A DNA stretch of 33,218 nt from Rhodospirillales bacterium (GTDB taxonomy: Bacteria; Pseudomonadota; Alphaproteobacteria; Rhodospirillales; Defluviicoccaceae): assembly GCA_025458035.1 (NCBI GenBank), contig JALOTH010000011.1, forward strand, positions 1 to 33,218. Direction: 5' to 3'. Shown one piece after another: positions 1 to 18,302 of the stretch. The stretch's first letter is position 1, and every line of letters begins with the position of its first letter. Position numbers and translations under genes: made by a program. The notes below the pieces were generated by a model. The model saw nothing but the letters and a program-made list of their open reading frames with translations. It was not told where the DNA came from and searched no databases.

Positions 1-108
1 TAGTGCAGCGGCGCATTCAAAAAAATGCCCGGCCGCTGCACGCAACCTATTGTTTTTATTGCACATATGACCCATTGGACTGACCCATCCGAATGGGTCT
101 GTGCACTA
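1..108 (-). mobile_element. MITE-like repeat element, copy A
   Basis: This is a non-coding element of about 108 bp. Read on the minus strand it begins TAGTGCACAG and ends GCCGCTGCACTA, giving short terminal inverted repeats (TAGTGCA/TGCACTA). Hand alignment with copy B at 18162-18268 gives about 97 identical positions of 108, with one single-base gap. Inside are two hairpin-forming dyads: ACCCATT/AATGGGT near the stop-codon end, and GCAGCGG/CCGCTGC with an inner GCATT/AATGC near the other end. The inner end lies in a CTAG (106-109) whose TAG is the stop codon of motB. The outer end is cut by the window edge right at TAG. Size, terminal repeats, CTAG target and lack of coding capacity suggest a MITE mobilised in trans by an IS630-type (TA duplication) or IS5-type (CTAG duplication) transposase. 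The family assignment is inference. Confidence 0.75.
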
Positions 109-1035
109 GCGGCCACCGAGGGCGGCGGCAGTTGTGGTGCCGGCGCCGTCGCCGCCGCTGCCGCGGATGAGCAGAAGACTCAGCCGGCGGTTGCCCGGAT
201 GATCAGGATCGTGGGGCTTCAGGGGCTCGGTCGCCGCCATACCGACGACGCGCGCGATGCGCTGTTCGCCGACACCAAACTGCCCCAGCATCCGCCGCGC
301 GGCGTTCGCCCGGTCGCTCGACAACTCCCAGTTGGTGTAGGTGCTGTCGGCGGCGTAGCGGGTTCCGTCCGTGTGACCGGAGATGGCGATATCCTGCGGC
401 ATCGAACGAATGACCCGCGCCACCTGTTCGAGCAGCCGGCGGGTGTGGGCGTACATTTCCGGACTGCCGCGCGGGAACATCGGCAGGCCCGCCTGATCAA
501 GAATCTGGAATCGCAGCCCCTCGGGCGTGTTGTCGATCAGCAGGCTGTTGGTCAGCGGGCGCAGATCCATGTCGGCGGCGATCGCCTTGCGCAGCGCTGC
601 CTCCGCCTCCTTGAACTGGCGGTCTTCCTCTTCCTTCAGCAGCTCTTTCAGGGATTCATCCGCCGGCGATTCCTCGGTCAGCTGGCCGTCGCCGTTGATC
701 GCCGCAACGTCGGAATTGCCGGCATCGACGGTGGCGTTCTGGTCGAGAAGGCCGGCGCGCCGTTCCTGGGAGTTGTAGACGCCCTTGGCATCGACGGTCT
801 GCCCCTGCAGCATGCCCTGGCCGCCGCTGGTCGACTTGGCGGTGGTGATCGGCGCGAAATAATCGGAAATGCCTTCCAGTTGCTCCTGCGATACGGCGTT
901 GAGCAGCCACAGCAAAAGGAAGAAGGCCATCATCGCCGTCACGAAGTCGGCGTAGGCGACTTTCCACGCGCCGCCATGGTGGCCGGCATGGCTCTTTTTG
1001 ATCCGCTTGATGACGATCGTGCCGCCCTTCGCCAT
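106..1035 (-). CDS. motB: flagellar motor stator protein MotB
   Basis: MotB forms the peptidoglycan-anchored half of the proton-driven flagellar stator with MotA. The 309-residue product has the typical basic cytoplasmic N-terminus, a Plug_MotB segment and one membrane helix at about residues 27-46. The helix starts YADFVTAMMAFFLLLW, and Asp30 is the expected proton-carrying residue. A C-terminal OmpA-like peptidoglycan-binding domain covers about residues 200-290, with the signature SGHTDGTRY followed by SSDRANAARR. The middle region is acidic and coiled-coil-like (about 120-155). The gene follows motA with a 9-base gap, so the two are one operon. Its TAG stop codon is formed at the end of the repeat element at 1-108, so the 3' untranslated region is entirely that element. 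No other flagellar genes are visible. Confidence 0.95.
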   Translation of the reverse strand: MAKGGTIVIKRIKKSHAGHHGGAWKVAYADFVTAMMAFFLLLWLLNAVSQEQLEGISDYFAPITTAKSTSGGQGMLQGQTVDAKGVYNSQERRAGLLDQNATVDAGNSDVAAINGDGQLTEESPADESLKELLKEEEDRQFKEAEAALRKAIAADMDLRPLTNSLLIDNTPEGLRFQILDQAGLPMFPRGSPEMYAHTRRLLEQVARVIRSMPQDIAISGHTDGTRYAADSTYTNWELSSDRANAARRMLGQFGVGEQRIARVVGMAATEPLKPHDPDHPGNRRLSLLLIRGSGGDGAGTTTAAALGGR

Positions 1036-17570: not shown

Positions 17571-18164
17571 ATGCAGTTCAAGAGTGTGGCGCTGTTGGCT
17601 GGCGCGGCGGTCGCGGGTCTCCTTGCGGCGCAGCCGGCGATGGCGGCCGTTTGCACCAGCGATGCCGACATTACGGTGTGCAAGACGGTGAACGGCGCCG
17701 GTCCGGCCTTCACCAACCTGGACGCCGGTCCCTACGATTTGGCCGACGGGCTCTACTCGGTCCAGGAGTTCGTGTTGAACGGCTCCAACGTCGCCTGGAC
17801 CGACTATCACATCATCCTGCAATCGTTCAATCAGACCACGGGGCTGTGGGAAGATTCCGACGACTTCGACGGCATCGACTTTTCCGGAACGACCCTCGCG
17901 GTCGGCATCAACGACGTCAACCAGGCCGCGGGTTGGAACGGCACCGTCAATTTCTCACCCATCGACAGCATCGACTTCCTGTTCACCGGCTTCACCGTGT
18001 TGCCGGGGCAGACGCTGTCGCTGATGTTCACGGTTGCTGATTTCACCGAGCGCGAGTGGCGGCTGGCCCAGTATGCAACGACGGCGCCGGTACCGGTTCC
18101 CGGCGCGGCGCTGCTGTTCGGCTCGGCCCTCGCCGGTCTGGCCGCGGTTCGCCGCCGCCGCTAG
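17571..18164 (+). CDS. VPLPA-CTERM / PEP-CTERM sorting domain secreted protein
   Basis: This 197-residue secreted protein has a signal peptide (MQFKSVALLAGAAVAGLLAA, cleavage near QPAMA-AVC). A beta-rich, Asp/Gly/Thr-rich body follows. The C-terminal sorting signal is PVPVPGAALLFGSALAGLAA, then five basic residues: a proline-rich motif, a hydrophobic helix and an Arg cluster. That is the tripartite signal of PEP-CTERM/VPLPA-CTERM proteins, processed by exosortases, often linked to exopolysaccharide. The body has no recognised enzymatic motif. The frame opens at 17493, but GGAGG at 17559-17563, seven bases before the ATG at 17571, fixes the start. The TAG stop codon coincides with the first three bases of repeat copy B. 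No exosortase is encoded in this window. Confidence 0.85.
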   Translation: MQFKSVALLAGAAVAGLLAAQPAMAAVCTSDADITVCKTVNGAGPAFTNLDAGPYDLADGLYSVQEFVLNGSNVAWTDYHIILQSFNQTTGLWEDSDDFDGIDFSGTTLAVGINDVNQAAGWNGTVNFSPIDSIDFLFTGFTVLPGQTLSLMFTVADFTEREWRLAQYATTAPVPVPGAALLFGSALAGLAAVRRRR

Positions 18165-18268
18165 TGCACAGACCCATTCGGATGAGTCAGTCGAATGGGT
18201 GAGATGTGCACTAAAAACAATGGGTTGCGTGCAGCGACCGTGCATTCTTTGAATGGGCCGCTGCACTA
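18162..18268 (+). mobile_element. MITE-like repeat element, copy B
   Basis: This 107-bp non-coding element is the inverted partner of copy A at 1-108, about 90% identical. It starts TAGTGCACAG and ends GCCGCTGCACTA. CTAG flanks both ends (18161-18164 and 18266-18269), as expected for insertion into CTAG with duplication of either TA or CTAG. The first dyad is perfect here: ACCCATTCG with CGAATGGGT around an 11-base loop. The second pairs GCAGCG-CC with GG-CGCTGC plus CATTC/GAATG. Its first three bases are the stop codon of the VPLPA-CTERM gene, the same end-to-gene relation as copy A has to motB. It carries no open frame of note. It may also act as the 3' hairpin of that mRNA. Confidence 0.8.
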
Positions 18269-18302
18269 GGGCTTGTGACGGCGAATTTTCAGGGCGCATC
18301 AA

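Follow-up and report, generated by a model that had tools for sequence, protein, structure and literature searches.

A short repeat closes two genes in the window

The window analysed here is a stretch of 33,218 nucleotides from a Rhodospirillales bacterium. It starts with the first base of contig C8 in a draft genome of 3.1 Mb (hereafter the own genome). At its left edge lies motB (106..1035, minus strand; Pfam MotB_plug 4.5e-20, OmpA 9.7e-15), whose TAG stop codon (106..108, minus strand) takes its G from the first base of a short element (copy 1, 1..108, minus strand), consisting of a body (3-106) between two TA dinucleotides (1-2 and 107-108) and beginning where the contig begins. A second copy (18162..18268, plus strand; TA 18162-18163, body 18164-18266, TA 18267-18268), flanked by a C at 18161 and a G at 18269, closes a gene at 17571..18164 (plus strand), the G of whose TAG stop (18162..18164, plus strand) is again the element's first base. 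The product of this gene gave weak PEP-CTERM/VPLPA sorting-signal matches, all below the curated cut-offs; since they run to the last residue, the C-terminus looks complete and the stop natural.

The initial annotation had aligned the two copies at about 97 of 108 identical positions with a single-base gap, and had proposed that the element end supplies the motB stop, preceded by CGC as at 18162-18164. Both observations were borne out: the reverse complement of 1-109 matched 18161-18269 at 98 of 109 positions with one internal one-base gap (BLAST E-value 1.5e-35), and the motB stop is element-derived with the same preceding triplet. It had also considered that the sequence might be a conserved ancestral motB 3' end, an objection that fails because none of seven motB homologues carries the element within 200 bases past the stop. 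Folding of copy 1 predicted two hairpins, one at end A (GTGCACA side; 60..105, minus strand) with a 3-base asymmetric bulge on the linker side, and one at end B (GTGCAGCG side; 3..41, minus strand), also with a 3-base bulge on the linker side. Rfam gave no match in the window, and a terminator scan found one six-pair site only per window copy.

Distribution of the element and its relatives

The own genome contains 11 copies of this repeat of ~108 bp. Among the ten other than window copy 1, the end that corresponds to position 1 of the window reads CTAG in nine and CTCG in one. Their terminal inverted repeats (ends GTGCACAGACCCATTC / GTGCAGCGGCSCATTC) are imperfect, and those of the related family described below are weaker. 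Overall, the four-base tag of the element is CTAG, with GTAG at a few ends only. When the own element was searched in 60 genomes (the own one included), matches appeared in three, namely the own genome, G002 and G003, the latter two holding one own-type copy each, at a common site. G002 and G003 also harbour a sister family, 119 bp long and different from the own element, with the same CTAGTGCA outer ends; a first pattern for its A end matched 19 times in G002 and 17 times in G003, and a second pattern gave more. A further family of ~97 bp was found in G004 (three copies inspected), with CTAGTGC ends as in the 119-bp family. A search of the 119-bp element against 317 genomes of the order, in which only two candidates per genome were scored, returned six matching genomes: G002, G003 and four of genus g96, which belongs to another bacterial family. 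One of the latter, G223, showed 49 end matches. A plasmid collection contained no match for the own element or for one g96 element, and among the matches listed in a search of openly licensed PMC papers there was no paper describing this family.

Several contigs start at an element or within ~170 bases of one (the window at position 1; C31, C37, C42, C47 and C70 of G223), a sign that such repeats break draft assemblies. Another repeat of ~80-97 bp is dispersed over some 16-20 places in G002/G003 and adjoins some of the elements (flanks of L074 and L240, G003). Tandem element copies also occur, joined by TC, TG or GA and not by TA (L048/L069, which are orthologous, L237 and G003:C6:106592-106827).

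Paired hairpins and their co-variation

Folds of the own, G002/G003 and g96 families gave two outward-facing hairpins, joined by a short linker and having conserved feet (GTGCAG../GTGCAC..). Most folds showed a short asymmetric bulge on the side of the linker; in the g96 copies L303, L319 and L329 the first hairpin had no bulge. The G004 family folded as a single stem. Reading the own family in reverse gives the order of the other two and a linker resembling theirs, and the three two-hairpin families were therefore taken as one superfamily.

Co-variation was scored on 13 hand-picked rows (4 g96, 4 G002/G003 and 5 of own type) against a structure that had itself been written from folds of elements of this type. 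Both choices favour the structure, and the three families amount to few independent changes. For the hairpin alignable in all three families, 94.7% of cells pair, and neither any of the 500 shuffles nor any slid version attained the score. Changes on both sides were present in 7 of 16 pairs, a value reached by 17 of 500 shuffles, and the number of pair types was reached by 478 of 500. When both hairpins were scored in two families, pairing extended to 97.0% of cells and the score again lay above all shuffles; the share of pairs with changes on both sides (7 of 33) was reached by 110/500 shuffles and the pair-type number by 500/500. G-U cells were nearly absent (1/208 and 1/264, respectively), which suggests that the symmetry may be kept at the DNA level.

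Empty sites in sister species

To compare occupied and unoccupied sites, the flanks of 29 G002/G003 sites (13 + 16) were joined and searched in both genomes. For ten of them the joined flanks matched the sister species without interruption, as an empty site. At 16 sites the flanks lay ~80-120 bases apart in the sister species and, by our reading of the rows, were filled, partly by degraded copies; the remaining three (L072, L224, L238) gave neither a clear empty nor a clear filled match. All ten empty sites carried a single NTAN where the filled counterpart reads TA-element-TA, with small indels near L054, L076 and L223. These sites all come from the sister family and none from the own-genome family, which presumably behaves in the same way.

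The empty-site tetramers were CTAG (3), TTAG (4), CTAA (1), TTAA (1) and TTAC (1), so that YTAR describes 9 of the 10. Filled ends are mostly CTAG, although 7 of the 10 empty sites are not. The stability of CTAG when no element is present was estimated from a G002 stretch with 121 unoccupied CTAG, 53 of them alignable to G003. The tetramer was kept in G003 at 18 of 26 positions at stops or between genes and at 7 of 27 inside genes, and none of the 53 had turned into TTAG or CTAA. A T preceded the TA in 6 of 10 empty sites, compared with 0 of 26 unoccupied CTAG at stops or between genes (p 0.0001) and 0 of 13 at stops alone (p 0.002); CTAG itself was kept in 3 of 10 empty sites against 18 of 26 unoccupied ones (p 0.06). 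In 17 pairs filled in both species the base before TA was never T, being C but for one G partner and one A partner. One filled copy outside these pairs (L231) has TTAG at one end, and by our own count, with orthologues counted separately, one end reads CTCG inwards in ~18 copies. End changes are also present where the empty site is CTAG (L057, L223), which indicates that they arose at or after insertion. The presence of CTAG at just three of ten empty sites, together with its stability when unoccupied, is not accounted for by a plain rule of insertion only into CTAG: either rare new CTAG alleles alone are hit, or insertion overwrites the flanks.

Copies coincide with stop codons

Genes were called with a home-made caller based on a codon-usage model. 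In the own genome, 9 of the 11 copies have an end that forms the stop codon of a called gene (L099 was counted by eye, its coordinates being one base off), compared with 9 of the 40 remaining CTAG sites in 304 kb, mostly contigs that bear copies (Fisher p 0.0006). Leaving out the CTAG inside genes, p was 0.004, a value from an earlier count of 8/38 with two sites fewer. Two of the loci, L089 and L099, close genes on both sides, one stop of L099 being TAA by a change inside the element. The genes at the copies are unrelated to one another, and Pfam families were assigned to 8 of the 9 other proteins that the element closes in this genome, indicating that these are real genes.

A similar count was obtained for the sister family. 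Among 36 loci collected by their exact A end, a choice that favours A stops and includes many orthologous pairs, L075 was dropped as lacking the end, and 26 of the remaining 35 fell on stops by script, or 28 of 35 with L056 and L060 added by eye. A profile search over 0.78 Mb of G002/G003 sequence, partly chosen for holding copies, gave 20 copies (including two orthologous pairs and one tandem pair), 14 of which lie on stops, against 44 of 255 CTAG (p 0.0007 against CTAG outside genes only); this share exceeds that of every other TA-containing class tried. In genus g96, 6 of 24 loci (31 junctions) fell on a called stop, a count made on exact ends only, from 30 of 63 pattern places fetched and with a gene model from 20,197 codons. 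This lower share indicates that the strong stop bias is a property of the present genus, or of its compact genomes, and not of the element generally.

Convergent neighbours were also frequent: by our reading they flank 7 of the 10 own-genome sites for which both neighbours are known, against 37 of 249 adjacent gene pairs separated by no more than 400 bases, and in G002/G003 they flank 19 of 35 sites against 87 of 651 gene pairs. According to PMC2174442, CTAG, TTAG, CTAA and TTAA are exactly the tetramers able to stop two convergent genes at once. In G002/G003 stretches CTAG stands ~1.4-3 fold below a Markov estimate and, in the larger ones, ~10-fold below the expectation from composition, and one 217-kb contig contains 73 CTAG, with 696 expected by composition and 173 by the Markov estimate.

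The two window copies share their orientation relative to the host gene, and from this a preference for both site and orientation had been deduced. The site preference holds in this genus, as the above 9/11 against 9/40 shows, but the orientation preference does not. By our reading of the 11 own-genome sites, the stop is formed by end A only in 6, by end B only in 1, by both in 2 and by neither in 2; however, in a set of 20 sister-family copies whose detection depended on neither end, the corresponding numbers are 6, 7, 1 and 6, which lends no support to a general preference. Because CTAG is a palindrome, at the target as at the element ends, a stop is rebuilt in either orientation and the agreement of two copies is little evidence.

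Search for a transposase

Each of the five genomes of the genus gave DDE_3 (IS630-type) matches, with 3 in the own genome, 63 in G004 and a short fragment in G003. A scan for TA-flanked repeats only showed that the G004 IS630 copies have TA-flanked TAGAGCGG-type ends and none GTGCA ends, and the IS630 copies found were rejected as the source. No TA-flanked inverted repeats were found around the transposase fragments of G000-G003. A Y1/RAYT (RAYT/IS200) mover was discarded too, as the Y1_Tnp profile (PF01797) matched none of the five genomes of the genus in a search that was positive in 5 of 14 controls.

Exact-end patterns recognised no autonomous partner with the same ends in 8 own-family and 4 g96 genomes, where no pair of ends enclosed a recognised transposase; backward-pattern controls for these searches were set aside because CTAG depletion makes them poor. 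End pairs 0.4-2 kb apart were neighbouring full copies or tandem arrays, as exemplified by the close pairs at G002:C4:36335/36794, G003:C19:295433-296555 and G003:C20:210018/211716, the last being two full inverted copies. These inverted copies (G003:C20:210018-211728; L214:10018-11728) frame a short-chain dehydrogenase and a 125-codon ORF, like a small composite unit.

A DDE_Tnp_1 (IS5-type) fragment of G001 (L039:1176-1661), which abuts a CTAGTGCACCGACTC end, was rejected as a partner, its inspected relatives ending differently. A cellulase-like ORF precedes the fragment and end (G001:C272, L039:1157-1661), its stop lying immediately before them, and the fragment seems nested in an element. 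An own-genome copy also closes a cellulase gene, but a comparison of the two (own L099:8139-9359; G001 L039:182-1156) gave a single significant match of 26 residues (E 2e-4), and they are consequently not the same site.

A probable MITE-like element that rebuilds stop codons

We consider it probable (roughly 0.8) that the repeat is a small non-autonomous, MITE-like element, resembling a REP dimer, which inserts at the TA of a CTAG/YTAR-type site and rebuilds TAG stops. Insertion at such a TA would leave a TA on both sides, and the element's first G and last C would then restore TAG for the left gene and, for a convergent gene to the right, on the opposite strand. Since the body opens with G and closes with C, TAG is rebuilt whichever strand the stop is on and whichever way round the element lies. 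Insertions at stop codons would cost the host little and survive, a process that may contribute to the stop bias and by which motB would have been hit. The element would be moved in trans by a transposase, probably an IS630-type DDE enzyme that duplicates TA, or else an enzyme acting on folded DNA.

A variant of this proposal, which we regard as speculative and fairly unlikely, is that the element itself carries CTAG at both ends, homes to YTAR stops and overwrites the target tetranucleotide as the substrate of a folded-DNA recombinase. It would explain filled ends of CTAG at sites whose empty counterpart is another tetramer, as would the rare CTAG alleles mentioned above. If the tags were element-borne, every insertion would rebuild TAG on both strands, which would make this a stop-codon-homing element with a new insertion chemistry.

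Element-borne tags are likewise part of a REP/BIME (REPIN)-type origin, in which head-to-head, CTAG-tagged palindromes would be moved as folded single-stranded DNA by a Y1 tyrosine transposase. The two outward hairpins with bulges and unpaired tags outside, stems differing almost only by Watson-Crick changes as DNA hairpins should, and the replacement of TTAG, CTAA or TTAA empty sites by CTAG ends all agree with it, as does the location of published GTAG REPs, which according to PMC3733652 also lie near 3' ends and often provide TAG. We nevertheless hold this origin to be unlikely, as the Y1 profile is absent from the five genomes of the genus while detectable in controls, the tag is neither GTAG nor CGTC, and an empty site with a single NTAN is most simply the product of a TA duplication.

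An IS5-family MITE with a 4-bp YTAR target has a precedent in MITEPsy1, which according to PMC3189936 duplicates 4 nt on inserting at CTAG or YTAA. Such a MITE would agree with the YTAR empty sites and with the IS5-type fragment beside an element end in G001. The closest inspected relatives of that fragment carry GGACACCTCGAA-type repeats, however, and by our own reading the element of G001 contains a similar degenerate end, which places the IS5 sequence as nested in the element and not as its source. A 4-bp duplication identical to the target was not what the sites displayed, since 7 of the 10 empty sites have another tetramer than CTAG and filled sites show CTAG at both ends where the empty one is TTAG. 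Such an ancestry seems very improbable to us.

That the repeat is not mobile but a conserved structured 3' UTR or terminator travelling with genes can practically be dismissed: hairpins beside stop codons, many of them between convergent genes, and stem conservation would suit it, but the genes differ at each copy, the motB homologues do not carry it, Rfam and the terminator scan offered nothing beyond the six-pair sites, and presence or absence between sister species with single-site empties refutes such an origin. A secondary role of the mobile element in 3' end formation is possible.

Such an element would illustrate a simple route to harmlessness, with a target that is rare inside genes yet present at stops and with ends that rebuild the stop both ways. 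In compact GC-rich genomes, stop rebuilding may govern where small repeats survive. The insertions also place stable hairpins directly 3' of many stop codons, with possible effects on transcript ends, and the empty-site comparison provides a testable clue to the insertion chemistry.

Comparison with known systems

Both REP termini that give TAG stops (PMC3733652) and small elements targeting CTAG (PMC3189936; IS630) are already known. With IS630/Tc1-mariner elements and their MITEs, as described for ISY100 in PMC2170065, the element shares the TA duplicated on insertion and the preference for TA in CTAG; for IS630 itself, this preference is taken from the title of Tenzen and Ohtsubo 1991, cited in PMC2170065. 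It departs from IS630 in that no IS630 copy with GTGCA ends was found in our searches and in that the C/G next to the filled sites is often not matched at the empty site. To our knowledge, a double hairpin is not typical of IS630/Tc1-mariner elements and MITEs.

MITEPsy1 of P. syringae, a 100-bp MITE attributed to IS5 with a question mark in PMC3189936, is likewise a non-autonomous element of the ~100-bp class targeting CTAG or YTAA; it differs in its 4-nt duplication, and the terminal repeats of the two are unrelated. The GTAG/CGTC-tagged REPs form head-to-head dimers whose GTAG termini often provide TAG stops, according to Di Nocera et al. 2013 (PMC3733652). Like them, the present copies are short palindromic dimers with unpaired four-base outer tags, and they are extragenic and close to the 3' ends of unidirectional or convergent genes. 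Unlike REPs, they occur in genomes (the five searched) from which the Y1 transposase is absent, and they are set apart by a CTAG tag at both ends, longer stems, and conserved feet and linker.
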